DNA from: a virus
DNA length: 26,040 nucleotides
Reading direction: 5' to 3' (one strand)
Virus record (IMG/VR): IMGVR_UViG_3300028883_000125
Span: 1 to 26,040 of that record
The notes beneath the pieces are model-generated. The model saw only the letters and a list, made by a program, of their open reading frames with translations. It had not been told where the DNA came from and searched no databases. Positions 4,606 through 21,236 of this stretch are shown piece by piece (positions within the stretch are counted from its first letter, which is position 1; each line of letters begins with the position of its first letter). The position numbers were made by a program, and so were the translations under genes.

Positions 4606-5217
4606 ATGCAGAATCCGACGTATCGGCGAACGCCGTTTGAACGGAAGCGGGATCGGGCGTTCGTTGCGAAACATCTTGCACTCCGAAAAACGATCTCGGA
4701 GATTACCGATCTCGTTAACCTCACATTCGGCTATGATCCGCCGCTCGTCTGGCAGACGATACAGAAAGACGTGAGGGCGATCGAGAAGGTTTATCACTCT
4801 GAGACGTTGATCGATTACGAAGCGTATCGGAAGCAGGAAGAAGCCCGGTATGTCGCGATTGAAACAGAAGCCCTTGAGCAATGGGAGCTTTCCAAGCGTG
4901 ACCGAACGACGGAATCTCAGAAGATCAAGGGCAAAGCGGCGAAGGGATCGGAATCGGTCGACAAGGTGAACGAGGTCGAAAAGTCGAAGACCGTCGAACG
5001 CCGGGAAGGAGATCCTCAGTTCCTTCGCCTAGCCCTCGATGCCGTCGATCGGCGAATAAAGCTCATGGGCGTATCGTCGCCAGTTCGACACGAGATCACG
5101 GGGAAGGGCGGGGCTCCGCTTGTTGATTCGCTCCCGGATATGACGAGCCTTCCAGACGATCAACTCATAAAGATTATCGAGACGTATGAGAACGCAAAGC
5201 GCAAGCAGGATAAGTAG
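4606..5217 (+). CDS. terS: Terminase small subunit
   Basis: A 203-residue protein directly before the large terminase, the usual place for the small subunit that recognises phage DNA and starts packaging. Residues about 27-62 (KTISEITDLVNLTFGYDPPL onward) form a probable helix-turn-helix region. The middle (about 70-135) is a charged, helical, likely coiled-coil section for ring assembly, and the C-terminus has a short GKGG loop and LPDDQLIKIIETYENA, often the part that contacts the large subunit. The ATG at 4606 sits behind GGGAG at 4595-4599; a GTG at 4594 in the same frame is less suitable. It overlaps the large-subunit gene by 32 bases. Confidence 0.8.
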   Translation: MQNPTYRRTPFERKRDRAFVAKHLALRKTISEITDLVNLTFGYDPPLVWQTIQKDVRAIEKVYHSETLIDYEAYRKQEEARYVAIETEALEQWELSKRDRTTESQKIKGKAAKGSESVDKVNEVEKSKTVERREGDPQFLRLALDAVDRRIKLMGVSSPVRHEITGKGGAPLVDSLPDMTSLPDDQLIKIIETYENAKRKQDK

Positions 5218-6685
5218 AGCCTCATCGATATACGAATCTGCCCGCCGGGAACTTGCCCGGCGTTCGTTGCTTGCGTTTACTGAGTACACTTTTCCGGGTT
5301 ATCAAGTCGGATGGGTTCATCGGGATATATGCCGCCGCCTTGATCGGTTCCTTGCCGACGTACAAGCCGGGCGATCTCCTCGTCTGGCTTTATTCATGCC
5401 TCCGCGACACGGGAAAAGCGAACTCGCTTCCCGCCGGTTCCCGGCGTTCGCCCTCGGGCAAGACCCAGACCTTCAGATCATTCTCACGTCGTACGGGGCG
5501 GATCTAGCAACGCTCATGAACGGCGATATTACCTCGATAATCGATTCTGATCTTTATGGGTCGATCTTCCCGAATACGATTCTCGGCGGCAAGGGGTCGA
5601 CGAAAAAAAAGCGGGAAGACTTTATTCAAACAGTTGGACACTCTGGGCAAGTGAAAGCGGCGGGCGTCGGCGGATCGATCACGGGCATCGGGGCAAACAT
5701 CTTCATTATTGACGACCCGGTTAAGAATATGGAAGAAGCCGATTCTCCGACGTACCGGGAAAAAACGTGGGACTGGTATCGATCAACGGCCCGGACCCGT
5801 CTTCAGCCGGGAGGCGGCGTTCTCCTGATTCAAACGCGATGGAACGAAGACGACCTCGGCGGGAGATTGCTTGAAGACGGGGAGAACACTTGGGAGATTG
5901 CAAGATATCCAGCGATCTCCGAACCAGACGATCAGGAACCCGGTTCTCCTGCATGGAAGAAGCGCCTTCAGGTTGACAAAGAGAATCGTGATATCGGAGA
6001 TCCGCTTCATCCGGAACGGTTCAGCAAGGAAGAGCTTGAACAGACGAAGCGCGAAGTCGGTTCCCGGGTCTGGTGTTCACTCTATCAACAGGATCCTCGA
6101 GCCCGGGAAGGCGGTCTTTTCCGTCGCGAGTGGTTCGATATCGTCGAAAAGATTCCGCTCACCAAAGGATTGCGAACGGTTCGATATTGGGACCGAGCCG
6201 GGACCGATCCGAAAACAGAGGGCGGCGATCCTGCTTTTACAACCGGCGTGAAGCTTACTTATGATTCCGCCTCGGGAATCTTTTATATTGAGGATATCCG
6301 CCGGTTCCAAAAAAGACCTCGTGGCGTACGAGACGCGATCCGGGCGACGGCATCTCAAGACGGTGCCTCTGTTCATATTGGCATCGAACAGGAACCCGGA
6401 TCTTCCGGGAAGGAATCGATCGAGATAATGATCTCCGAACTTGCCGGGTATGTTGTTCGGGCGGATCGCCCGACGGGATCGAAGGAGACCCGGGCGGAGC
6501 CGGTTTCCGCTCAAGCGGAGATCAGGAATATCAAGCTTCTTAGAGGATCGTGGAATCGGGCGTTCCTCGATGAGGCGGAGGGATTCGGGGCGGGCGGAAA
6601 ATACAAGGATCAGGCCGACGCCTTATCTGGAGCTTTTGCGATGTTAGTCGGGTCAAAATATGATATCTACCGGCTCATTCATTAG
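5186..6685 (+). CDS. terL: Terminase large subunit
   Basis: A 499-residue DNA-packaging motor with both enzymatic halves visible. The N-terminal ATPase has Walker A MPPRHGKS (71-78), Walker B IFIIDD (172-177) and a probable coupling motif QTRWNEDD (about 216-223). The C-terminal RNase H-like nuclease has YWDRAG with D336, IGIEQEPG with E401, and DQADALSG with an acidic residue at 475 or 478, giving the expected metal-binding triad. The length is normal for the family. It starts inside the end of the small-subunit gene, indicating coupled translation. It cuts concatemers and pumps DNA into the prohead through the portal encoded next. Confidence 0.95.
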   Translation: MRTQSASRISRASSIYESARRELARRSLLAFTEYTFPGYQVGWVHRDICRRLDRFLADVQAGRSPRLALFMPPRHGKSELASRRFPAFALGQDPDLQIILTSYGADLATLMNGDITSIIDSDLYGSIFPNTILGGKGSTKKKREDFIQTVGHSGQVKAAGVGGSITGIGANIFIIDDPVKNMEEADSPTYREKTWDWYRSTARTRLQPGGGVLLIQTRWNEDDLGGRLLEDGENTWEIARYPAISEPDDQEPGSPAWKKRLQVDKENRDIGDPLHPERFSKEELEQTKREVGSRVWCSLYQQDPRAREGGLFRREWFDIVEKIPLTKGLRTVRYWDRAGTDPKTEGGDPAFTTGVKLTYDSASGIFYIEDIRRFQKRPRGVRDAIRATASQDGASVHIGIEQEPGSSGKESIEIMISELAGYVVRADRPTGSKETRAEPVSAQAEIRNIKLLRGSWNRAFLDEAEGFGAGGKYKDQADALSGAFAMLVGSKYDIYRLIH

Positions 6686-6694
6686 GAGAACGAT

Positions 6695-8158
6695 ATGAAA
6701 GAATCAACGGCTCCCTCGGTTCGCGGCATGAAGACCGACGAGATCAACGAATACGCCTCCGCCTTCCGGCGTTACGATTCATGGGCGAATGTGTTTACCG
6801 GGCTCGGCATGGAGGGACGGGATAAACGACTCTCGACGAAGTATACAACGCCGACGATTCTCGATGAACAACAGTTGATCGACTTGTATCGAGGAGACGG
6901 TCTCGGTCGGCGAATCGTTACCGTTCCCGCCGACGAAATGACTCGGGAGGGGTTTAAGGTAAACGGCGATCCGGAAGGGGTGATCGTAGAGTATCTCGAA
7001 GATCAGGGATTCCATATTGAAGTAAACCGGCTAATTCGATGGGCGAAGCTTTTCGGAGGGGCGATCGGCGTGATCCTCGTCGACGACTCGTCTTCAGATC
7101 TTGCACTTCCCCTCAACGAGGGAACCGTTCGATCATTGCAGGGAATGAAGGTCTTCAGCCGGTTCCGATGCCCTATCAATCCGACCTCGTTGTATAAAGA
7201 CCCGATGAACCCGAAGTTCCTCACTCCTGAATATTACGAAGTCACCCCGATACAGGGATCTCCGTTCCGCGTTCACGAATCTCGGGTTGTCCGTCTCGAT
7301 TCCGTCGACGTCCCGGACCGGGCTTTGCTGGCAAATCAAGGCTGGGGCGATTCTGATCTTCAAGGAGCGTACGAACGACTCCGGGCGATGGGTACGGCAT
7401 ACGCCGCGACCGAACTGATTATCGAGGACTTCGCTCAAGCCGTTATGAGGATCAAGGATCTCGGAACCTTGATCGCTTCCGACGAGGGGTATCAAGCCCT
7501 TCTCCGCCGCCTCAATCTGATCGATATGAGTCGGCATATTGCGAATACTGCAATCCTCGACGTTGATGAGGAGTATTCGAAACACTCGACAAGTGTTACC
7601 GGGCTCCCGGATCTTCTCGACCGCTTCGTTCGAGGCCTAGCGGCGTCTTGTAATCCATCGATACCGGTTACTCTTCTCATGGGACAAGCTCCGGCGGGAT
7701 TGAACGCAACCGGCGACTCCGATGTTCGGAATTGGTACGACTCAATTCGCCGCTTGCAGTATTCATGGCTTCTCCCGGTCTGGAAGCGCCTTGTTCACCT
7801 TGCCTATATATCCAAAGACGGACCGTACTCCGGGACCGAAGAGGATTCGTGGAAGATCGAATTCAATCGGCTATGGCAACTCACGGAAAAAGAAGAAGCC
7901 GACGTTCGGAAAACAATCGCTGAGACGGATAAGATTTATATCGATACCGGCGTCGTTGATCCCGAAGAGGTCGCGGTTTCCCGGTTCGCCGGTTCAGAGT
8001 TCAATATGGATATCGAACTTGCCGAAGGTTCAGACACGCTTGAAGGGCGTCTCGGTCGTGAAGGGCAAGAGTCACCCGAAGATGTCGAGGAGCGGGTTCG
8101 TATGCAGGTTGAGGCAGAATACGCCGCGAAAGAACAAGTTCAACCCGGGGCGAAGTAA
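6695..8158 (+). CDS. Portal protein (DUF1073-like)
   Basis: A 487-residue protein with AGGAGAAC at good spacing before the ATG. Several traits match the DUF1073/Gp6-like portal family: SWANVFTGLGMEGRDKR near the start, the core RIVTVPADEMTREGFKV, GGAIGVILVDD, and LMGQAPAGLNATGDSDVRNW (about residues 326-345), a hallmark of the family. The C-terminal 60 residues are acidic and helical. The portal forms the ring at one vertex through which DNA enters and leaves and on which the tail assembles. It lies right after the large terminase and its stop shares a base with the next start, the common head-gene order. Confidence 0.9.
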   Translation: MKESTAPSVRGMKTDEINEYASAFRRYDSWANVFTGLGMEGRDKRLSTKYTTPTILDEQQLIDLYRGDGLGRRIVTVPADEMTREGFKVNGDPEGVIVEYLEDQGFHIEVNRLIRWAKLFGGAIGVILVDDSSSDLALPLNEGTVRSLQGMKVFSRFRCPINPTSLYKDPMNPKFLTPEYYEVTPIQGSPFRVHESRVVRLDSVDVPDRALLANQGWGDSDLQGAYERLRAMGTAYAATELIIEDFAQAVMRIKDLGTLIASDEGYQALLRRLNLIDMSRHIANTAILDVDEEYSKHSTSVTGLPDLLDRFVRGLAASCNPSIPVTLLMGQAPAGLNATGDSDVRNWYDSIRRLQYSWLLPVWKRLVHLAYISKDGPYSGTEEDSWKIEFNRLWQLTEKEEADVRKTIAETDKIYIDTGVVDPEEVAVSRFAGSEFNMDIELAEGSDTLEGRLGREGQESPEDVEERVRMQVEAEYAAKEQVQPGAK

Positions 8159-9330: not shown

Positions 9331-9532
9331 GAGTCTCTCCCGGCTTCGGATATGCCTTCCGATCAATCTCGATCAGATCAAAGCCCATTCGCTTCATCTC
9401 TTTGTTGATCTCCTTCACGCATTCGCGGCAAAGCGGTTTCGACCCGTCTTTATACGAGGTCTTCGGAACGTACAAGAGGCGGCAATGGAACGGATTACGG
9501 CATCGCCCGCAATGCTTTACTCGCGTAATCAT
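9326..9532 (-). CDS. Small zinc-finger protein, 68 aa
   Basis: Second gene of the antisense pair. Its ATG shares a base with the TAA stop of the 570-aa gene (TAATGA), so it is probably translated by re-initiation. Residues 8-11 (CGRC), Cys17 and residues 35-38 (CREC) form a probable zinc site, with FHCRLLYVPKTSYKDGSKPL between them; then comes a charged helix EINKEMKRMGFDLIEID. No family was recognised. The overlapping + strand frame has no start signal or motif, whereas this strand has a terminator just downstream and a promoter upstream of the pair. Confidence 0.75.
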   Translation of the reverse strand: MITRVKHCGRCRNPFHCRLLYVPKTSYKDGSKPLCRECVKEINKEMKRMGFDLIEIDRKAYPKPGETQ

Positions 9533-11244
9533 TAGAAAGCCCTCGACGGCTTGATCTCGACGACGCGGCGAAGTTCCCACTCGAGCCGACCCTTGATCTT
9601 TTCCTCGCGTTCAATACTTGCGATCTTGTCCGTTGCCTCTTCCCTTGTATTGAAGTGATTCCCGATACAGATATACCTTACTCCGTGTTTGTTGTGATCC
9701 ATCGCCGTCAATTCAAAGCGGATCGTATTGTTCTCGATATCCGCGATCACGCGATCTGCATCGCCGACCGGATGAGAGGGAACGTTCGTCGCTTCGCTAA
9801 AGGCGGAGGAGTGACGGTTCCGGGCGTGGAAGTAATAAGGGGCGGTATACATCTTCAGGTCGATGAATTTCCCGGGGATAAACGGCTCAAGGTCGCCGAT
9901 ATACATTACGCGGTCGGTGTACCTCTTATCGTCGATCGGGGAGCCGTCGTGATCCGTCGCCTTGTTGTACGGAGTGTTATGGAAGAACCGGACCGTTACC
10001 CGGTTCTTGTTCATGTACCCGGGGAATTCGACGATCTTCGCGTTCTGAAAGTACTTGCAGGGATCGCCCTTCACGCGAACCTGAGTCCCGATATAAATAT
10101 CGCCGACGAAGTTCGGGCGACCGGTCGTCTTCAGAATATCAACGGCCCGGGCAAACAGGGAAGCAAAGCGTTCCTCGATCATTACCGGGCGATCATTCTC
10201 GCGAACGAGTTCCGCTTTATCCATTGCCCGGAACTTTTCCGGAAATGAGAAGTCTTCAAGCTTCGACTTCGCGTCGATCCCTGCGAACAGGCCCAGACGC
10301 TCAGCGTCGGCGTCGAGTTCGTTGTAATGGTTCTCGATGAACTTCAAGACGGCGAATGAAGCCCTCTCGCTCTTCTGGTTGGCAACGTAACCGCGAAGCT
10401 TGTACGCGTGAGTGAATGGGCCAGAATCTTCGAGAGCGATCCTGATCGACGCCAGAACAGAACTTTCAATATGCTTCGCGCCAAGAGACGCCGTGACGTA
10501 AATACCTTCCGAATCGGTCTCGATATCGAAGTCGCGAATATACTGAACGTCGAACATTACAAGCCCGCGTTCCTCGAGGAACTCAAGGCGATCGCAAATA
10601 TCGCTTTTGATCCGGTTGAAAGCCCGGATAAACCGATGTTCCTCGCGACTCGCTTCGCTTCCATCTTCGACCCGGGGCTTTCGGGAAACGACGACGATCG
10701 TAATGATATCGCGGTCGACCGGATCTTGAACGATCTCAACCCGGGACTCGCGAACCTGATATTTGCAGAGTGGGCAATAGTAGAACTTTTCGCCGGTCTT
10801 TGTTTGCGGAAAGTAGAATTGATCAGAAGAATCGATCTTTTCGGAATGTTGAAGGAGTCCCTTGTCGCAAGACGGGCAAATCAGGTTGTACCCGTCGGCG
10901 CTCTTCTGAACCTTGATCGGCTCGCCGGATTCGATCTCCGCTTTGCCCTTCGCCAGATCTTCAGTGATCTCGCCCGAACCCGGGGAGGGCTCGGGATCGT
11001 CGTCGATCAGGTAATATTTACCTCCAAAAGCCCACTCATTCGGATTCTCGGTATTGATAAAGTTCTCTGCATCCTCTCGTGAGTCAAATTTCTTCACAAG
11101 AAGCGTTGACCCGTCTTTGTGCCCATTCTGGATATAAACAGGAAATTTCCCATCGAAAGCCGGGGAAGAAATAATTTCCTTCTGGAATTGATAATCTCTG
11201 ACGAGGGTAGTCAGTTTGGCGGCTTTTTCACTTGTGCTCTTCAT
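9532..11244 (-). CDS. Unknown 570-aa protein with a zinc ribbon
   Basis: The largest unassigned gene and one of only two on the - strand. The ATG follows GAGGAGAGAGAACA, a strong ribosome-binding site, and a sigma70-like promoter. Residues 1-80 look like a small alpha/beta domain (FPVYIQNGHKDGSTLLVKKF, then DSREDAENFI). After an acidic linker, CPSC (123-126) and CPLC (157-160) make a four-Cys zinc ribbon. Residues 170-300 contain beta-strands and helices (IITIVVVSRKPRV, then FIRAFNRIKSDICDRLEFLE), and the C-terminal half has further beta-rich sequence (IYIGTQVRVKGD, YICIGNHFNTREEA). No catalytic motif, signal peptide or membrane segment is visible. Codon use matches the surrounding phage genes. 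Its isolation, orientation and own signals suggest an accessory (moron) gene, perhaps expressed in lysogeny; function unknown. Confidence 0.85.
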   Translation of the reverse strand: MKSTSEKAAKLTTLVRDYQFQKEIISSPAFDGKFPVYIQNGHKDGSTLLVKKFDSREDAENFINTENPNEWAFGGKYYLIDDDPEPSPGSGEITEDLAKGKAEIESGEPIKVQKSADGYNLICPSCDKGLLQHSEKIDSSDQFYFPQTKTGEKFYYCPLCKYQVRESRVEIVQDPVDRDIITIVVVSRKPRVEDGSEASREEHRFIRAFNRIKSDICDRLEFLEERGLVMFDVQYIRDFDIETDSEGIYVTASLGAKHIESSVLASIRIALEDSGPFTHAYKLRGYVANQKSERASFAVLKFIENHYNELDADAERLGLFAGIDAKSKLEDFSFPEKFRAMDKAELVRENDRPVMIEERFASLFARAVDILKTTGRPNFVGDIYIGTQVRVKGDPCKYFQNAKIVEFPGYMNKNRVTVRFFHNTPYNKATDHDGSPIDDKRYTDRVMYIGDLEPFIPGKFIDLKMYTAPYYFHARNRHSSAFSEATNVPSHPVGDADRVIADIENNTIRFELTAMDHNKHGVRYICIGNHFNTREEATDKIASIEREEKIKGRLEWELRRVVEIKPSRAF

Positions 11245-13056: not shown

Positions 13057-14154
13057 ATGCAGACCTCTTACTCTCGCGACTTCGCAATCGGTCAGAAGGG
13101 ACAACTCGCCGACTCCTCATTCCATCATATCGTCTCGCTTCTTGGCAAGGAAGATATCGGAATCGGCCTGGGTCTGGCGAAGTTCAAGGGCGAAGACAAT
13201 GTCGCCCGGCTCCCTCAGATCAATATTATCTCCCTTCAAGCCGATGCCGATCTCGTCACGTCGAACTCGACCGTCGCTTCGGTGACGATTCAGGTCTTCG
13301 GCGGATCTGAGGTCGTAAACACAACGTCGGCGACCGTCTTCGCAACGGATCACGCGACGACAATGGCGGCAATTGCGGCAAAGATCGCGGCTTTTACCGG
13401 CATCTCCTCGTGTACCGTAACCGACGCAAACAGCCGGACGCTTTACATTGTCGCCGAAGACAATGTTCAGATTTCGGACGCCGAAGCGACCACGACCCTC
13501 GGCGGATCACAAGCGGCATGGACTGCGACGAACGACTCGGGCGATGAGTTGTACGCAATCGCGGCAACCGGTCACGATATCGAGCAGACGTACCCGCCGA
13601 ACAAGCTTACCGTCTCGACGATCACGATCACGCTCGACGCCGACTTCGTCGCCTCGAACGTTCTCGCCGGGTATATCAACGGAACCGCGATCTCGATCAC
13701 GTATGCGTCGAGTCACGCGAACACTATGAACCTGCTCAAGGCGGCGGTCGAAGCGATTACCGGGATCAAGAACGCAACGGTCTCCGGTCGCGTTCTTACC
13801 GTGAACGCCTTCGCCGGGTATAACATCCGGTATTCGACGTTTGCGATTACCGGCGGATCTTCGCAGGCAACCGTAACCCTCGCGAACGCGACCTCCCAGA
13901 CCGGCGGACTCGTGCAGTACGACGAGGGCGAAATGATCCCGGGGCTTCGTCGTGGTCGGGTTTATGTCGAGGTCGAGCAGGCGGTCGATTCCGACGATAC
14001 CGTATACGTCCGCTTTGAGGCGAACTCGAACGGAGAACCGGGCGGATTCCGCAAAGACGCCGACACGAACACGGCAATCGCGTGGACCGGGGCGAAGTAT
14101 GTCACCTCCGCCTCCGCCGGAGGGATCGCAGAGATTGAACTGAACCTTCCGTAA
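13057..14154 (+). CDS. Capsid cement/decoration protein with two inserted repeat domains
   Basis: 365 residues; the AAGGAG site lies inside the end of the previous gene. Residues 1-58 (GQLADSSFHHIVSLLGKED onward) and 284-365 (VQYDEGEMIPGLRRGRVYVE onward) resemble a phage structural cement protein (Gp24-like) split in two. Between them lie two copies of a beta-rich, Ala/Thr-rich domain (about 62-157 and 186-280), each with a TxxxFAxxHAxTM-like core and a closing GGSQAxxT-like end. The same domain occurs in the tail sheath gene at 20 kb. The core probably stabilises the capsid lattice; the inserts are probably exposed on the surface. Confidence 0.75.
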   Translation: MQTSYSRDFAIGQKGQLADSSFHHIVSLLGKEDIGIGLGLAKFKGEDNVARLPQINIISLQADADLVTSNSTVASVTIQVFGGSEVVNTTSATVFATDHATTMAAIAAKIAAFTGISSCTVTDANSRTLYIVAEDNVQISDAEATTTLGGSQAAWTATNDSGDELYAIAATGHDIEQTYPPNKLTVSTITITLDADFVASNVLAGYINGTAISITYASSHANTMNLLKAAVEAITGIKNATVSGRVLTVNAFAGYNIRYSTFAITGGSSQATVTLANATSQTGGLVQYDEGEMIPGLRRGRVYVEVEQAVDSDDTVYVRFEANSNGEPGGFRKDADTNTAIAWTGAKYVTSASAGGIAEIELNLP

Positions 14155-14156
14155 GC

Positions 14157-14172
14157 AACCCGGGAACGGGTT
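14157..14172 (+). other. Intergenic RNA hairpin before the major capsid gene
   Basis: A perfect 6-bp stem AACCCG / CGGGTT closed by a GGAA tetraloop, a stable GNRA-type loop, in the 58-base gap after the decoration gene. No T tract follows, so it is not a terminator. It may stabilise or mark the processing of capsid mRNA. The sequence behind it contains a short direct repeat, AACTTGAACTTGAAC. Confidence 0.45.
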
Positions 14173-14212
14173 CAGAATAACTTGAACTTGAACGAAGAAG
14201 GAGCTTCTCACA

Positions 14213-15193
14213 ATGAACGAGAAGGAAAAAAAGATCATTCTTGACTCGATTCACTTCGATTCGAACGAGTCGATCTTCTTCGCCCGGGAGCTTGAGTACG
14301 TGAAGGCTCAGACGTACGACGTTGAATATCCGGAACTTCAGGCAAAAGCCTTGTTCCCGGCTTCAACCGAAGCTCCGGCGGGCGCGAAGGTTATCACTTA
14401 TCGCCAGTTCGACAAGCTCGGCATGGCGAAGATAATCGCGAATTACGCCGACGACCTTCCTCGCGTGAACCTGAAGGGGAAGGAATTCAGTTCTCCGGTT
14501 CGTACCATTGGCGACGCTTACGGGTATTCCGTGATCGACATTCAGCACGCGGCAATGGTCGGAATGCCTCTCGACTCCAAGCTTGCAACGACTGCCCGGG
14601 AAGCCGTCGAGATGAAAGAAGACGATATCGCGTTCTTCGGCGACGAGGAATTCGGTCTTCAGGGCATTCTCACGAATGGCAACGTCTCTGCGTATGTTGT
14701 TCCCGACGGAACGGCAAGCGTAACGAACTGGATTCCGAACTCCGCTGGATCAGGGAAGACTCCGCTTGAGATCGTGCGGGACGTGAACGACGTTCTCCGC
14801 TTCGCTCCGAGCCTTACCCGGGGCATCGAGCGGCCCGATACGCTCGCGATCTCGTCCGACGAATTCACGCACATCTCAACGACTCCGATGAGTGCGGATA
14901 ACACGAACACGACGATCCTCGAGTTCCTGAGGAGGGCTCACCCGACGGTAACATTCGTTTCCGTCGAAAAACTCTCGGATCTTTCTCCGGCCCGGGTCGG
15001 AGGCGGGGATACGACGAACGTTATGGTCGCGTATCGACGTTCTCCGGATCGTCTCACATTCGAGATTCCGATGATGTTCACTCAGCTCCCGGTTCAGGAG
15101 CGGAACCTCGAATACGTCGTGAACTGCATCGCCCGGAACGGCGGAATCATTATCTACCGGCCTCTCTCGGTCACGATCGCCGAAGGCATTTAA
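14213..15193 (+). CDS. Major capsid protein (DUF2184-like)
   Basis: 326 residues, preceded by AAGGAGCTT. The DUF2184 traits are clear: FFARELEYVKAQTYDVEYPE near residue 25, then ALFPASTEAPAGAKVITYR, AKIIANYADDLPRVNLKG and YGYSVIDIQHAAM. Later parts, REAVEMKEDDIAFFGDEEFG and GLQGILTNGNV, fit the family's capsid core, which is HK97-like. The ending RNGGIIIYRPLSVTIAEGI is also typical. It forms the head shell. Position after protease/scaffold and decoration genes is standard. Confidence 0.92.
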   Translation: MNEKEKKIILDSIHFDSNESIFFARELEYVKAQTYDVEYPELQAKALFPASTEAPAGAKVITYRQFDKLGMAKIIANYADDLPRVNLKGKEFSSPVRTIGDAYGYSVIDIQHAAMVGMPLDSKLATTAREAVEMKEDDIAFFGDEEFGLQGILTNGNVSAYVVPDGTASVTNWIPNSAGSGKTPLEIVRDVNDVLRFAPSLTRGIERPDTLAISSDEFTHISTTPMSADNTNTTILEFLRRAHPTVTFVSVEKLSDLSPARVGGGDTTNVMVAYRRSPDRLTFEIPMMFTQLPVQERNLEYVVNCIARNGGIIIYRPLSVTIAEGI

Positions 15194-15274
15194 CCGACGG
15201 CGACCGATTGAGGGAATGAGACTCCGAAGACGTTCAAGCGTGATATCGAGACAAAACAGAAAGAGAGGTATCAA

Positions 15275-15709
15275 GTGGCGGTAATGATTATCAGGTGGGA
15301 TCGGGCTCATGTTACGAAGCTTGCAGGAATGAGAATCGCTCCCGGAACGAACCGGGTAAGCGAAAACCTCGCTCCGGTAATGGTTCGGAACAAGGTCTTC
15401 TTGGAACAGGAAAAGCGGGGAGTTATCAGGGTTCTCGAAGGCGATCCGCGTAAAAAGGGGAGCGATAAAGAGGCGAAGGCTTCGAAAAGCTCCTCTGATT
15501 CCGACCTTGCAGAGATGAAGGCAAACGAAGCGATCGATATCGTTCACGATACCTTTGATCTTGCAATTCTCGCCGAATGGAAAAAGGCTGAGGAGCGGAA
15601 GACCGTACTCTTCGCGATCGAAGATCAGATCGACAAGATCAACGAGAAGGGAAAGTACGCTCCGCCCGAGAGCAAGAAGGAACCCGATCCGGCGAAAGCT
15701 TACTCATGA
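15275..15709 (+). CDS. Hypothetical head-region protein, 144 aa
   Basis: Not assigned. I chose the GTG at 15275, with GAGAGG six bases upstream; an ATG at 15284 is further from that site. The first 60 residues look like a small beta domain (MIIRWDRAHVTKLAGMRIAP). The middle is Lys/Ser-rich, and the end (about 75-125) is a charged helix (EMKANEAIDIVHDTFDLAIL). It stands between the capsid and head-completion genes, where many phages carry a short variable head protein. An 81-base gap with no visible signal separates it from the capsid gene. ATGA overlap with the next. Confidence 0.65.
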   Translation: MAVMIIRWDRAHVTKLAGMRIAPGTNRVSENLAPVMVRNKVFLEQEKRGVIRVLEGDPRKKGSDKEAKASKSSSDSDLAEMKANEAIDIVHDTFDLAILAEWKKAEERKTVLFAIEDQIDKINEKGKYAPPESKKEPDPAKAYS

Positions 15710-16083
15710 GTCTCACGACCGCTCAATATATCGACATTCGTGATCCGGATACATACGCTTCGCTTGTCGCAGCGAGTCGATTGGATAATCTGATCGAGGT
15801 TGCCGCTGAACAGTTGAGCGCAACGGTTTACGGAGACCGATATGAACTCGCCGTCGCCCTCCTCGTTCTTCATTGGGAAGCCATGAGGAACCGGGGCGGC
15901 GTCGGCGGAGCGGTATTGTCTGAACGGCAGGGGCAAGTCGCCCGCCAGTATTCCGGAGGCTCTGGATCGTTCGGATCTTTGAAAAATGATCTTGAGGCGA
16001 CTGCATGGGGGCAGGAGCTTGCTTCCCTTCGGATGAAGACGCCCGCCGGGTTCTCGCCAATGAACCGAATGATCACGAGGTAA
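15706..16083 (+). CDS. Head-completion / connector protein (DUF4054-like)
   Basis: 125 residues. The DUF4054 pattern is visible: a helical N-terminal half ending AVALLVLHWEAMRNRGG, then GGAVLSERQGQVARQY and the end LEATAWGQELASLRMKT. Family members form the ring that joins the portal to the neck. The start overlaps the previous stop (ATGA), and the gene is followed without a gap by the gp10-like neck gene, as expected for this module. Confidence 0.85.
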   Translation: MSLTTAQYIDIRDPDTYASLVAASRLDNLIEVAAEQLSATVYGDRYELAVALLVLHWEAMRNRGGVGGAVLSERQGQVARQYSGGSGSFGSLKNDLEATAWGQELASLRMKTPAGFSPMNRMITR

Positions 16084-16085
16084 TG

Positions 16086-16583
16086 ATGAAAACCGGAAAC
16101 CTGATCATTCGAGACAAAGGCTGGAATCGAATCAAAAAAAGCCTTCAGGAGGCAGAAGGAAGTTATACAAAGGTCGGAATCCAGCAAGGAGCGCTACACG
16201 AGCCGTCTGCAAAAGGATCAAAACCTCAAGAGACGTCCGATCTTGTAAAAATTGCGGCAATTCAGGAATTCGGAGCGCCAAGGGCACCCGGCGGAGCGAT
16301 TCCAGAACGTTCATTCCTGAGATCGACAATTGATGCAGAACAAGCCCAGATCCTCGCCCGGATCGATCGAGAGCGGTCTCGCTTCATCGAAGGGAAGCAA
16401 GACGTACGGACCGCCCTCGCCCGGATCGGCGAAGACGTACAAGGGCGAATTCAGAAGAAGATTACCGATCTCCGTGAACCGAAAAACTCGGACGTTACAA
16501 TCGCTTTGAAAAAGTCGTCGAATCCTCTGATCGATACCGGACAACTTCGGCAATCGATCAGACACGTCGAGAAAATCGTATGA
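16086..16583 (+). CDS. HK97 gp10-like / virion morphogenesis neck protein
   Basis: 165 residues. Two adjacent ATGs are possible (16083, 16086); CGAGG ending at 16080 suits the second better. The motif VKIAAIQEFGAPRAPGGAIP followed by ERSFLRSTID (about residues 57-85) is typical of gp10-like and Mu gpG-like proteins involved in completing the neck or tail. A helical middle and a closing NPLIDTGQLRQSIRH are also family-like. ATGA overlap with the next gene. Confidence 0.8.
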   Translation: MKTGNLIIRDKGWNRIKKSLQEAEGSYTKVGIQQGALHEPSAKGSKPQETSDLVKIAAIQEFGAPRAPGGAIPERSFLRSTIDAEQAQILARIDRERSRFIEGKQDVRTALARIGEDVQGRIQKKITDLREPKNSDVTIALKKSSNPLIDTGQLRQSIRHVEKIV

Positions 16584-16930
16584 GTCTTCCTCAGCATACA
16601 TTAACAGTAACCCGGTATTCAGCCGGTTCTCTTGTGAAAGGGCGATGGGTCGAGGGGACTCCTTCGACGTTCACGATTAAGGCAAGCGTTCAACCGCTTC
16701 GCGGGAAAGATATCGAGCTTCTCCCGGAAGGGCGAAGAACCGGATTCTCGCAAGTTCTTTTTACCGATACGGAATTGAAGATTATTACCGAAGGCGCAAC
16801 GCCAGTAAACGCTGATCGGGTTTCAATCGATGGAAGCTCATTCGAGGTTCTTCACGTTGAGCCGTGGAACAACCTCGGAACTCTGAATCATTACCGGGCA
16901 ATCGTTACCCGGGAAGGGGCGAAAGCGTGA
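16580..16930 (+). CDS. Head closure / head-tail adaptor protein
   Basis: 116 residues, mostly beta-strand in appearance: HTLTVTRYSAGSLVKGRWVE, TIKASVQPLRGKDIELLPEG, then FTDTELKII and a final strand HYRAIVTREG. This is the usual layout of small closure proteins of the gp16/FII-like beta-barrel kind, which plug the connector after packaging. The location between gp10-like and tail terminator genes supports it. Assignment rests on pattern and position rather than a named motif. Confidence 0.65.
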   Translation: MSLPQHTLTVTRYSAGSLVKGRWVEGTPSTFTIKASVQPLRGKDIELLPEGRRTGFSQVLFTDTELKIITEGATPVNADRVSIDGSSFEVLHVEPWNNLGTLNHYRAIVTREGAKA

Positions 16931-17463
16931 TCGACTTCTCCGCCTTGCAAGACAACCTTTTCGATCAGTGGCTTACTGGCGAACTGACTTCGACCGGGTT
17001 CACATTCGTATGGGCGGATCAGAACGCTCCGACTCCAAACGGTTCAGTCGTATTCGGGCGAATTGGATCGATGAGAAAGATCGGCGACGATCAACTCGCG
17101 ACGAACGTCGACGGCGGAATCGATATCGGCGGAATTCGCGAATTCACACTTCGGCTTGAGGCGATTGGATCAGGATCACTCGATCTCTTGTCGAGCCTTG
17201 AAACATCGCTCGAGCGCCCGACGATTCTCGATTCTCTTCGGTCTGTTCAGATTGTGGCGATCAGAACGCTCGCAATGCAGGATCTTACGGGACTCTTTGA
17301 GGGGGAATATGAATCCCGGGGAGTCCTCGAGATAGAGATGAGGATCCCGTCGCCCTACGAGGAATCGCTTGAAGACGAGCCCGGCTACTTTGATCACGTA
17401 ACCGGCGAAGGGGCCGTCGAGAACGGTCAAGAGATTGATATCCCGATAAGCGTAACTCAGTAA
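16927..17463 (+). CDS. Tail terminator / neck protein (LIC_12616-like)
   Basis: 178 residues from a GTG overlapping the previous TGA (GTGA). The sequence GGIREFTLRLEAIGSGSLDL followed by LLSSLETSLERPTILDSLRS matches the LIC_12616-type phage neck terminator family, with a later QDLTGLFEGEYESRGVLEIE. The protein caps the tail tube and joins it to the head. The acidic C-terminal part (EESLEDEPGYFDHVTG) is typical of this protein in related phages. The next gene starts 15 bases later. Confidence 0.8.
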   Translation: MIDFSALQDNLFDQWLTGELTSTGFTFVWADQNAPTPNGSVVFGRIGSMRKIGDDQLATNVDGGIDIGGIREFTLRLEAIGSGSLDLLSSLETSLERPTILDSLRSVQIVAIRTLAMQDLTGLFEGEYESRGVLEIEMRIPSPYEESLEDEPGYFDHVTGEGAVENGQEIDIPISVTQ

Positions 17464-17478
17464 TCTTGGGAGAGATAT

Positions 17479-17949
17479 ATGTCAACTCAGGAACAGCGGG
17501 CGGCAAGAAACGCAACGCCTTTTCAGAAGGGGCCGGTCTTTACCGGCGACTTCGACAGGCTCGGCGAGGTCGAACTTACGATATCGGGAACGACGGAAGT
17601 CTCCGGAGATATTCGATGGGACGGTCGAGATCTGAATGGGAATATCTTCGTAATCGTGGAATCGACTGAGGTTACTTCCGGACTTGCGTCGCTTCTCGTG
17701 CAAGAGCGACCGCTTTACCCGAAACAGAGCGGAACGATCGGTGTCGACGAAGCGGGCGATACTGAGATCGATCTGTTCACGGGTCTCGACCTCTCGACGC
17801 TTGGTTACTCATCATTCATGGATCTCACTTCCGAGGTCGGCTTGGCTTTTGATGCAAAGAAAGCCTTGTCGCCGTGGGGAATTCGATTCTACGCGACCGG
17901 AGTCGGCGGTGACGACGGGAAAGTTAAAATCACAGTTTACGGGAACTAA
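17479..17949 (+). CDS. Hypothetical structural protein, 156 aa
   Basis: Not recognised. The ATG lies 15 bases after the neck terminator, with GGGAGAGATAT upstream. The protein is acidic and beta-rich (VELTISGTTEVSGDIRWDG, then IFVIVESTEVTSG), and closes with WGIRFYATGVGGDDGKVKITV, which looks like a jelly-roll or Ig-like fold. No Cys or membrane segment. Its stop shares a base with the start of the LamG adhesin gene, so the two are probably made together. It may be a virion-surface or adaptor protein that carries the adhesin. Confidence 0.65.
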   Translation: MSTQEQRAARNATPFQKGPVFTGDFDRLGEVELTISGTTEVSGDIRWDGRDLNGNIFVIVESTEVTSGLASLLVQERPLYPKQSGTIGVDEAGDTEIDLFTGLDLSTLGYSSFMDLTSEVGLAFDAKKALSPWGIRFYATGVGGDDGKVKITVYGN

Positions 17950-19631
17950 TGAATCTCCTCTTCGAAAAGAAGAATAGGGTCTCCGGATTCGGGCATAAAG
18001 TCTGGGGAAGACCGGCGGGAGTAATATTGCCGGAAAAAGTCGCCTCGGCATACTGGATCGACTTTACCGAGCAAGCGTTTGATTCAATGCGCGGCTTGAG
18101 TGAAAGCGTTGATCTTTTCACGGAGGCGAGTTGCGAGACTGTTCCATCATTCGAAGGCGACGCAATATCTACAAACTGGACCGGGGAAACAGGGTTACTT
18201 GCGTCTCAAGCTGCTGTCACCAATGATAGTGATTATGCGCTTTCTTTCGTGAATAATACGACTGCTTTCAAACAGGTTGGACTCGATCTCGGCGCCTTTT
18301 TAACTGACGGAGATTACGCGTGGGTCGAGTTTGATGTCAGGCATAATGGATTAGGTTCCGATACATATTGCCAGATTGCTTTCAATACTTCCGCGTCTGG
18401 GTGGACAAGTACCGGAAGAACTATCAATATCTTAAAAACCCAGACAGATTGGGTAAGAGTTGCGCTTCTTTTCCCCTACGATGAGGCTGTCGACTGGCTT
18501 CGTTATATGAAAGTCGGCTACATGTCCGGGGCTGCCTACGATGGTGGGGGAATATTTATAGACAATATGCAGGTTAAGTCTATTGATAGCGCGGCGACAA
18601 GTCAACTTTTTGCAAACAACGACTTTGTGAACTGGTCTGGGTCATTCCCGAATGAAGTTCCGGATAATTGGGTATTAAACGGCACAGCCGACGCAAATAA
18701 TTATTTAACAGAAGACGCTCCGAGTATTTTAAGACTCGTTTCAAACGGCGGGCTCATTGGAACGTATCAGGATATAGGCGACCCTTCAAATCATTCCGTT
18801 TTGATCCTTTTAAACATAACGGACGCTACTGATCCGCCAGCAGTTTTAAATATTGGTGCGGGCGGATCTGAGTTCATTGAGTCTTTGGGAACAACCGGAA
18901 TCGTCTCGAATACGGGTTCTCCGCAAGGCGCAACCCTAAAGGATCGTTTGCGTATTAATCGAACTTCAGGCGAGACAACAGACATGAAGTTCGATTGGGG
19001 GAGAGCATACCGTCTATATACCGGGATTGACGATTATTCTCGTTTCGTTAATATCTACGATCGAATATCAGGAAATTCTTTCATTTATCAAAACAGTTCA
19101 TCGAAAAGACCCACATTCTTTCCGGGGCTCGGTGGCTATTTTGACGGAGTCGACGATATTGTCGACCGTGGACTCGGGAACGAGATTAATTGTAAAGGGA
19201 TTATTGTCGCCTTCAGGCCCGACTCCTTCACTCTCTCAAGCAGATTGTTTGCTGGTAAGGATGGGTCAACCGATGTTTTCGGCGTTGGAATTTATCTTTC
19301 TGCAAGTAAAATACAATGGTATATCGATTCTGCTTATCGCCAATCGGTAAACACCTTCGCTGCAAATACATGGTGTGTCGGACTTTTTTACGTGGACTCA
19401 AAAAATAATCACATTCTGAGAGTGAACGGCATCGAAGAAATAAATTACAATGCAACTCCGGCGGCAACAAGCACATTTAGAATGATTGGGAATCGCGTAT
19501 CTACTGCAACTTATTTTAAAGGATTTGTCGGGGATTTTTACCTTATTCCACCCAATACTCCCGATGGCTTGATTGAGTCTGTATACAAGTATTTTCTCGT
19601 AAGATCAAAGAATCGAGGCTTGATTACATGA
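17949..19631 (+). CDS. Adhesin-like protein with LamG-type lectin domain
   Basis: 560 residues. After a short N-terminal region (1-60), residues about 60-215 and 215-350 look like two carbohydrate-binding-type beta-sandwiches (EGDAISTNWTGETGLLASQA; FIDNMQVKSID as the closing strand of the first). Residues from about 395 (GGYFDGVDDIVDRGLGNEIN) to about 545 form a LamG/concanavalin-like domain, with AFRPDSFTLSSRLFAGKDGS and AANTWCVGLFYVDSKNNHIL. These folds bind sugars, so a receptor-binding or head/tail fibre role is likely. The gene is AT-richer than its neighbours from about 18.1 kb and sits between neck and sheath genes, not with the baseplate, suggesting acquisition. The substrate cannot be inferred. 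Confidence 0.75.
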   Translation: MNLLFEKKNRVSGFGHKVWGRPAGVILPEKVASAYWIDFTEQAFDSMRGLSESVDLFTEASCETVPSFEGDAISTNWTGETGLLASQAAVTNDSDYALSFVNNTTAFKQVGLDLGAFLTDGDYAWVEFDVRHNGLGSDTYCQIAFNTSASGWTSTGRTINILKTQTDWVRVALLFPYDEAVDWLRYMKVGYMSGAAYDGGGIFIDNMQVKSIDSAATSQLFANNDFVNWSGSFPNEVPDNWVLNGTADANNYLTEDAPSILRLVSNGGLIGTYQDIGDPSNHSVLILLNITDATDPPAVLNIGAGGSEFIESLGTTGIVSNTGSPQGATLKDRLRINRTSGETTDMKFDWGRAYRLYTGIDDYSRFVNIYDRISGNSFIYQNSSSKRPTFFPGLGGYFDGVDDIVDRGLGNEINCKGIIVAFRPDSFTLSSRLFAGKDGSTDVFGVGIYLSASKIQWYIDSAYRQSVNTFAANTWCVGLFYVDSKNNHILRVNGIEEINYNATPAATSTFRMIGNRVSTATYFKGFVGDFYLIPPNTPDGLIESVYKYFLVRSKNRGLIT

Positions 19632-19888
19632 CGATATGCTGTTATGCGTTCAAAATCTCTCGTGGACAATGGATGCAGCTAACAGCACAAGAACAAACAG
19701 AATGGACACAAAAAATACTAAAATCGGGGAAAAGCTCTTGTTATGTAAAATGCTTTATTAATATTTCGGATAATGAGGTATTTAAAACAAGAAACCCAAG
19801 ATCAAACATTAATGCTATTGAACATTCAGGAAGATTGCAAGATTTGAACGATATATTTGATTTGGAAGGAGAACTCAATGAGCGATAA
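19628..19888 (+). CDS. Hypothetical protein, 86 aa
   Basis: Not recognised. The ATG overlaps the adhesin stop (ATGA). The protein begins MTICCYAFKISRGQWMQLTA and has a Cys-containing strand near residue 40 (SSCYVKCFINISD). The gene is AT-rich like the adhesin, so both were probably acquired together. It could be an assembly partner of the adhesin, but no motif proves it. Its 3' end holds the ribosome-binding site of the sheath gene. Confidence 0.6.
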   Translation: MTICCYAFKISRGQWMQLTAQEQTEWTQKILKSGKSSCYVKCFINISDNEVFKTRNPRSNINAIEHSGRLQDLNDIFDLEGELNER

Positions 19889-21236
19889 GCTTCCCGAAAT
19901 CGTCGACGTTTCGATTTCACGCGAGACGGCGGCAGTTTCTCAGGCTGGATTCGGAACGCTTCTCGTCGTCGGAGATTCGGGCGTATTTCCCGAGGTCGAT
20001 GTTGTAACAATTACCGTCGACGCCGATCTTGTCACGGGTAACTCGACACTTGTTACCGTGAATGGAACCGCTTTATCGCCGGTTGTCTTCGCGTCCGATC
20101 ACGCAACGACAATGACGGCAATTGCGACCGCGATTCAGGCATTAAGTGAAGTCGCGACCGCGACGGCTGGCGGAACGGGAACTCGTACGATTACAATCAC
20201 GGCGGCGGCTGGCGAGACCGTAATCGTGAACTCAGTCGTTACAACCCTCGGAGCAACACAGCCGACGTGGACAATCTCCCGAACGGCTGCGGCCCGGATT
20301 CGATTCTATTCCGACCCTGACTCGATCCTCGACGACGGTTTCGTAGCAACCAATCCGGAATACATCGCGGCGAATGCCGCGTTCAGCCAGTCGCCCGGGC
20401 CGACACAAGTCGCAATCGGGGCGAAGTGGTCCGGCGATGCAGATTACCCGGCGGCTCTTGCGGCGATCCGCGAGGAGAGCGACGATTGGTACGGGCTCGT
20501 GATCGAGGACCGTACGAAGTCGGTTGTTCTCGCAGTCGCGGCATGGGTTGAGTCGAAGATGAAGATCTTCGGAACCGCGTCGAACGATACCGATATCCTC
20601 GGGACCGGCTCAACGGATGTTGCAGCGGAACTGGCGGCCCTCAATTACGACCGTACGTTCTGCATGTATCACCCGGACGCCTTCAATACATACCCGGAGG
20701 CGGCGTGGTTCGGCGAACGGTCGCCGGATAATCCGGGCTCGGCAACGTGGATGTTCAAGACACTCTCCGGCGTTGCCGTTACAACCCTCACGACAACCCA
20801 ATCGACGAACGCTCTCGCGAAAGCGTGTAACGTTTATGAATCGATCGGCGGCGTCTCAATGACTCGTAACGGAACAATGGTTTCCGGCGAGTATATTGAC
20901 GTGATCCGGTTCGTCGACTGGCTTCAAGTCGAGATCGAGACGAACATCTTCTCTCGGCTCGTGAACCTGAAAAAGATTTCGTATACAGACGGCGGCGTCG
21001 GGATTATTGAGGCGGAGCTTCGCAAGGCTCTCGACAAAGGTATTCGCCGGGGCGGTCTGGCGGAGAATACCGACGAGACGAAATACAATGGGAAAAAGTA
21101 TCAAGTCACGGTCCCGAAGGTCGCCGATATCTCGGCGAACGATAAGGCGAACCGGCTTCTTCCCGATGTTTCGTTCCGGGCAACCCTCGCCGGGGCAATT
21201 CACAAGGGCGAAGTCGCCGGCGTCGTCGAAATTTAA
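19878..21236 (+). CDS. Tail sheath protein (DUF3383-like) with inserted domain
   Basis: 452 residues. The ATG at 19878 follows GGAAGGAGA; a TTG at 19857 is in frame but lacks such a site. The start IVDVSISRETAAVSQAGFGT is a DUF3383 hallmark, and ARIRFYSDPDSILDDGFVAT, then NAAFSQSPGPTQVAIGAKW continue the family. Residues 42-137, between VVGDSGVFPE and RIRFYSD, hold an extra domain homologous to the repeats in the decoration protein. The C-terminal part (AELRKALDKGIRRGGLAENT) is typical of contractile sheath proteins. The protein forms the contracting outer tail tube. Confidence 0.88.
   Translation: MSDKLPEIVDVSISRETAAVSQAGFGTLLVVGDSGVFPEVDVVTITVDADLVTGNSTLVTVNGTALSPVVFASDHATTMTAIATAIQALSEVATATAGGTGTRTITITAAAGETVIVNSVVTTLGATQPTWTISRTAAARIRFYSDPDSILDDGFVATNPEYIAANAAFSQSPGPTQVAIGAKWSGDADYPAALAAIREESDDWYGLVIEDRTKSVVLAVAAWVESKMKIFGTASNDTDILGTGSTDVAAELAALNYDRTFCMYHPDAFNTYPEAAWFGERSPDNPGSATWMFKTLSGVAVTTLTTTQSTNALAKACNVYESIGGVSMTRNGTMVSGEYIDVIRFVDWLQVEIETNIFSRLVNLKKISYTDGGVGIIEAELRKALDKGIRRGGLAENTDETKYNGKKYQVTVPKVADISANDKANRLLPDVSFRATLAGAIHKGEVAGVVEI

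Follow-up and report, generated by a model that had tools for sequence, protein, structure and literature searches.

Can a single surface domain serve both the head and the tail of one phage, and if so, by what route did it reach both and what does it do there? This question is raised by a 26,040-base viral sequence (hereafter the window, i.e. the whole stretch of DNA analysed) containing a myovirus head and tail cluster. A first-pass annotation had proposed that one domain occurs twice in the capsid decoration (cement) protein and once in the tail sheath. We will refer to the two cement segments as copies A and B (Table 1).

The proposed relationship was confirmed. In local alignments compared with 2000 shuffles, z-scores were 8.9 for A and B, 16.6 for A and the sheath copy and 17.5 for B and the sheath copy, and none of the 2000 shuffles scored as high. 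Both cement copies were recovered when the window was searched with the sheath (8e-14 and 1e-11), and a fourth copy was not found within its 26,040 nucleotides. AlphaFold2 models gave the same strands-helix-strands order, with matching elements, in all three segments, i.e. their predicted secondary structure does not differ in order. The three segments are thus one homologous domain of about 95 residues. Their previously claimed positions held up (Table 1); of the claimed motif plan, copy A and the sheath copy fit well, but copy B follows it more loosely (DADFVASN, YASSHANTMNLL, GGSSQATVT).

Table 1. Coordinates of the structural genes, domain copies and DNA-level repeat discussed in the text
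Feature	Position	Strand	Residues and site	Evidence
Capsid cement/decoration protein, core split by two inserted domains	13057..14154	+	365 aa	PF22758, core fold
Domain copy A	13225..13536	+	cement ~57-160, site C1	Flanking core residues; predicted strands 57-62, 71-80, 84-88, helix 99-111, strands 116-122, 128-133, 137-147, 155-160
DNA-level repeat, member 1, in copy A	13327..13394	+		75% identical to 20076-20143
Domain copy B	13618..13890	+	cement ~188-278, site C2	Fold match; predicted strands 188-193, 202-207, 210-215, helix 220-232, strands 237-243, 246-251, 263-265, 273-277
Major capsid protein, adjoins cement gene	14213..15193	+		PF09950 1.7e-60
Head-closure/collar protein without domain	16580..16930	+		phrog_939, as the L032 homologue with domain
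Tail sheath protein, DUF3383/phrog_205	19878..21236	+	452 aa	PF11863 1.8e-31; phrog_205 8.5e-102
Domain copy in sheath	20001..20288	+	sheath ~42-137, loop S1	z to A and B; predicted strands 42-47, 56-61, helix 75-87, strands 92-98, 103-109, 117-123, 131-136
DNA-level repeat, member 2, in sheath copy	20076..20143	+		Pairs with 13327-13394

We then considered the proteins that carry the domain. The cement protein belongs to Pfam family PF22758 (Phage_cement; E 1.4e-14, 54.9 bits against a cut-off of 27), and its gene is followed by that of the major capsid protein, the gene order expected of this family. The Pfam match consists of two stretches, one on each side of the inserts. When the core of its AlphaFold2 model (pLDDT 79) was read across the inserts, it matched XM1 7kmx (Z 15.8), Pam3 gp6 8hdt (Z 15.5) and E217 gp24 8frs (Z 14.2). 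The sheath is a member of DUF3383/phrog_205 (PF11863, 110.1 bits against a cut-off of 34.9), and the core of its model (pLDDT 88, about 78-93 within the domain copy) superimposes on the Sf14 sheath 9c3b with Z 37.1 and 1.8 A over 317 residues, leaving over an insert of about 100 residues. The next gene after that of the sheath, at the position of the tail tube gene, belongs to phrog_280 and encodes a structural protein. Of 53 near-complete related sheaths, 15 carried a domain of the window type and eight carried none, while the remaining 30 had a diverged one in another loop (S2, see below). Because Phage_cement sequence flanks the cement inserts, the Sf14 core fits without the insert and the domain-free related sheaths (345-372 aa) lack it, the inserted segments are insertions, in agreement with the earlier proposal that the domain splits a known core in both proteins.

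Scans of IMG/VR yielded about 90 loci, and an iterated profile gave 56 distinct protein/position entries, representing 53 different sequences. A single-protein scan with the window sheath found no close relatives; these appeared once an alignment was used as query. In tblastn searches against named isolates, no relative of the window cement was found, and the only match of the cement of L009 was the sheath of Rhizobium phages. Searching across phage structural proteins, as had been suggested, placed the domain in sheath, cement, collar, baseplate wedge and other virion proteins. Within the sheath family it occupied three loops, which follow predicted core strands 28-32 (S1), 178-182 (S2, after the IGRK strand) and 206-209 (S3, after the WYAFTI strand) of the window sheath model. 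Carriers were the window, L020, L021, L081 and L084 for S1; L020, L021, L031/L032, L039 and L048 for S2; and L010, L011, L035, L066, L069, L077 and L091 for S3, so that the L020 and L021 sheaths contained two copies each. The window sheath carries its extra domain in S1 and has a short S2, i.e. it lacks the S2 domain that is common in the family but does not define it; this absence concerns the insert and not the membership of the protein in the sheath family.

Cement proteins likewise had more than one site. Site C1 was used in most relatives, among cements that were found by searching with a carrier; site C2 in the window, L088 and L020 and, as a tandem, in L082 and L084; and site C3 in L032. 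Cement alignments had placed the single inserts of relatives at copy B, an assignment that we rejected, as flanking core residues assign them to the site of copy A. In the L084 cement (9479-10594), the whole insert is tandemly duplicated. Identical residues of these tandem copies use the same codon in 52 of 64 cases (34 expected, z 4.8), which points to a recent duplication. In L032, the domain was also present in the baseplate wedge (phrog_6) and in the collar protein (5172-5813, residues 27-114), which is a homologue of the domain-free collar protein of the window. L020 carried it in a 316-aa protein of no assigned role (7143-8090), and an unrelated phage (L017) in a different protein at the position of the decoration gene. 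The copy in the 316-aa protein closely resembles the one in loop S1 of the L020 sheath (z 25). Rhizobium phage RHph_I42 (L098, 13161-15482) possesses a T4-type sheath of 773 aa with copies at residues 137-214 and 281-376, annotated only as tail sheath.

To which known fold does the domain belong? In a fold search, copy B matched the extra domains of tail proteins of phiTE, A-1(L), Bas63, Mu and Milano and the nozzles of P-SCSP1u and T7 (Z 7.7-10.4), including residues 84-179 of the phiTE sheath (Z 9.6, 2.2 A over 82-84 residues) and the T7 and P-SCSP1u nozzles (Z 9.3 and 10.4). FliD and flagellin themselves matched more weakly (Z 5-6.5), and immunoglobulin chains reached only Z 2-3, below the sheath, nozzle and FliD matches. 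With about seven strands and one helix, the domain has the FliD/flagellin D2-D3-like lateral-domain fold; this match was obtained with copy B, and the assignment of copy A and of the sheath copy follows from their sequence homology and order of strands. No FliD-like matches were returned for the sheath model, since its core fills the match list. Flagellin_IN (PF07196) remained below its cut-off (best E 0.0079, in two of 11 members; L098 reached 16 bits against a cut-off of 22.7). When the domain alone was used for a profile search against solved structures, matches (e.g. histidinol dehydrogenase) did not exceed chance level and were discarded. As the fold has been described in sheaths, nozzles, auxiliary capsid proteins and flagellar caps (PMC12846349; PMC10172136; PMC10457771), its occurrence, including that in heads and tails of different phages, is already known.

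Next, we examined how the copies are related to each other. The tree comprised 53 copies and, as it was built from few columns (98), only starred branches were used. Three starred clades united copies from different proteins of one lineage: sheath, collar and wedge of L032 (97/97); two cement copies and the sheath copy of L081/L082/L084 (100/99); and sheath S1, cement C2 and the 316-aa protein of L020/L021 (98/95). A single clade of all sheath copies was rejected (p 1e-15), as was one of the S1 copies (p 5.6e-7); both p values are on the optimistic side, since the tested clades were named after the tree had been seen. Sheaths thus acquired the domain more than once. The window and L088 copies as a single clade were neither rejected nor shown (p 0.09). 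Over nine lineages, the composition-corrected z between cement and sheath copies was 16.7 within genomes and 10.2 for permuted pairings (p 0.0002; p 0.0014 without the related L077). Copies of one lineage are thus often each other's nearest relatives, even though the sheath copies of L048 and L010 were not near their own cement copies. The lineage clades and the same-genome excess are consistent with a domain copied repeatedly inside genomes; selection acting jointly on the copies of one genome is a possible addition, but is not needed.

In the window itself, no supported branch grouped the sheath copy with the cement copies. Each of A and B paired with its orthologue in L088, whose cement is 53% identical, and therefore the A/B duplication is older than the split of the window and L088. 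A trace of later events was found at DNA level. The likeness of copy A and the sheath copy reported near 13339-13377 and 20089-20127 is real, but its pairing was one base off; realigned, it extends over 68 nt (Table 1). In a 69-nt block, 51 of 69 bases are identical, compared with a mean of 43.4 predicted from the proteins and codon usage (p 0.001), and identical residues of the two copies share the same codon in 21 of 36 cases (11.8 expected, z 3.4). Copy A and the orthologous copy A of L088 agree at only 45 of 69 bases of this block, whereas in protein sequence copy A is nearer to the L088 copy than to the sheath copy. This points to a later DNA exchange between cement copy A and the sheath gene, although the result concerns one locus, for a pair that had been named beforehand by the first-pass annotation. 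Within the window, the excess was seen in one pair; most other cross-protein pairs lacked it, and therefore most transfers are old.

We consider it likely that the domain is a mobile module, probably displayed outwards, which lodges in virion surface loops; the earlier suggestion that it moved between head and tail of phage lineages is supported by the relatives together with the DNA block in the window. According to this model, a beta-sandwich module of about seven strands and one helix would lodge in surface loops, leaving the cores undisturbed, and its copies would spread by intragenomic recombination, i.e. segment duplication or gene conversion between virion genes. The most recent exchange in the window would have involved cement copy A and the sheath copy.

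Two other histories might account for the same distribution. Head and tail copies could each have been acquired from outside, from other phages or host flagellar proteins, as the fold also occurs in FliD and flagellin, a host source has been proposed for the XM1 sheath insert (PMC10457771), and a weak Flagellin_IN score was obtained (E 0.008). The lineage-specific clades across proteins, the excess similarity within genomes and the excess DNA identity that copy A shows with the sheath copy all speak for copying within genomes instead, and no confirmed relative emerged when bacterial and archaeal genomes were scanned with the domain profile by a pattern-based, non-exhaustive method, which makes an outside origin of each copy distinctly unlikely. 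The insert could also have been inherited vertically as a normal, integral domain of both families, for the phrog_205 and PF11863 profiles span a domain in the insert region and a diverged domain with a similar pattern occupies S2 in 30 of the 53 sheaths. Vertical inheritance may indeed hold for cement site C1, where most of the cements sampled (via a carrier) have a copy. As a general explanation it is very improbable, given the use of different loops, the existence of cores without the domain and the rejection of a single acquisition by sheaths; moreover, the sheath copy of the window sits in an earlier loop and not in the usual one after the IGRK strand.

What, then, might the module do? 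Judged from the model, S2 and S3, at least, would be located at the same edge of the alternating alpha/beta sheath core. The divergent domain III of the Mu sheath is reported to extend outward (PMC11915804), and it appears to be the stretch matched in the fold search of copy B. From these two points, the module is most likely displayed on the virion exterior. In a comparison of 13 pairs, the domain evolved no faster than the core (it was faster in one pair, p 0.03, and slower in two, p 0.001-0.002). Such a rate is unlike that of a receptor-tracking tip, yet compatible with weak binding to a constant ligand. The selective value of the module might lie in many-fold weak adhesion, with copies displayed all over the capsid lattice and down the length of the tail; multivalent binding of this kind to a constant ligand, be it the host envelope, the matrix or other particles, comes close to an even chance in our estimation.

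The main alternative, equally compatible with mobility, is a structural one, in which the module contacts neighbouring subunits and thereby pads the sheath and thickens or cements the capsid lattice, without any outside ligand. A core-like evolutionary rate would suit such a role, and the extra sheath domain of phage 812 has been proposed to stabilise the sheath disk (PMC9230969); three different loops in one sheath family and three sites in cement are nevertheless hard to reconcile with a fixed contact, many close relatives do without the domain, and the phiTE-type lateral domain was reported to have no part in contraction (PMC12846349). We regard reinforcement as possible, if somewhat doubtful, and the probability left over by adhesion and reinforcement falls to a module of no clear benefit. 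The more specific suggestion that the copies bind host or mucus glycans on head and tail draws on their likely surface display on high-copy proteins, on the likeness of copies within a phage, as expected from a common ligand, and on additional phage beta-sandwich domains that have been proposed as weak carbohydrate binders (in work cited in PMC9230969). Copying explains the within-phage likeness equally well, the domain evolves no faster than the core, and none of the Pfam carbohydrate-binding families matched the domain copies, so that specific glycan binding seems unlikely. We would also hold it unlikely that ongoing gene conversion keeps one module alike across head, collar, sheath and baseplate genes, with jumps between permissive loops; if this were true, the whole particle would show the same adhesive face.

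Comparison with known systems helps to define what is new, which appears to be the mobility of the domain and not its fold. The lateral domains of DUF3383- and Mu-type sheaths (phiTE 9cb9, Mu 9khy, A-1(L) 8kee and InD of XM1) are, like the window copy, the same fold inserted in the sheath core, and are dispensable for that core (PMC12846349, PMC10457771). The window copy differs in its earlier loop, S1, and in belonging to a sequence family common to the cement of the same phage; profile comparison connects it only weakly with the domain usually found in S2 (hhalign E 0.0034, probability 9%). In the FD domain of the crassvirus auxiliary capsid protein gp36, as in Patience 8giu, a FliD-like fold is inserted into a capsid-surface protein (PMC10172136; PMC12846349); the host core is a different one, PH-like in the crassvirus, and, unlike in the window, the available part of the crassvirus report describes no such domain in the phage's own tail (PMC10172136). 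A survey of fragment shuffling among phage proteins found domain mosaicism, as here, but it stresses receptor-binding proteins, baseplates and endolysins; a term search of its main text gave no mention of tail sheath or decoration proteins (PMC10684548).

Sharing of a fold by unrelated virion parts is known from structures, where the relationships are too old for sequence comparison. In the present case, the sharing is legible at sequence level inside a single genome, and copy number and insertion sites vary, so that the path taken by a surface domain as it spreads over the virion becomes testable. Promiscuous Ig-like domains of phages were reportedly described by Fraser et al. in 2006 (as cited in PMC9230969 and PMC10684548); by that account, they too are small beta-sandwiches distributed over unrelated virion proteins. 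The window domain differs by a helix amid its strands, by best matches that are FliD-like and not Ig, and in that it has spread to internal loops, at sites that vary, and shows signs of having been copied within genomes. Phages can thus re-use one surface module all over the particle. The insertion sites also point to naturally permissive loops in the contractile sheath and the capsid cement protein.

Several neighbouring genes of the window also deserve mention. Between the tail terminator and sheath genes lies a gene for a 560-aa protein (17949-19631) without relatives in Pfam, PHROG or the fetched loci, in a stretch that falls to 39% GC; by eye, it has the look of a LamG/carbohydrate-binding adhesin and might be a recent acquisition. 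It is preceded by a gene for a 156-aa protein (17479-17949), adjacent to the terminator, with no relative in any fetched locus, and followed by a small AT-rich ORF (86 aa, 19628-19888) directly upstream of the sheath, whose product is possibly a chaperone of the adhesin-like protein. At 1061-2362, a ParB-like N-terminus appears, from inspection of the translation, to be joined to a DNA methyltransferase-like domain.
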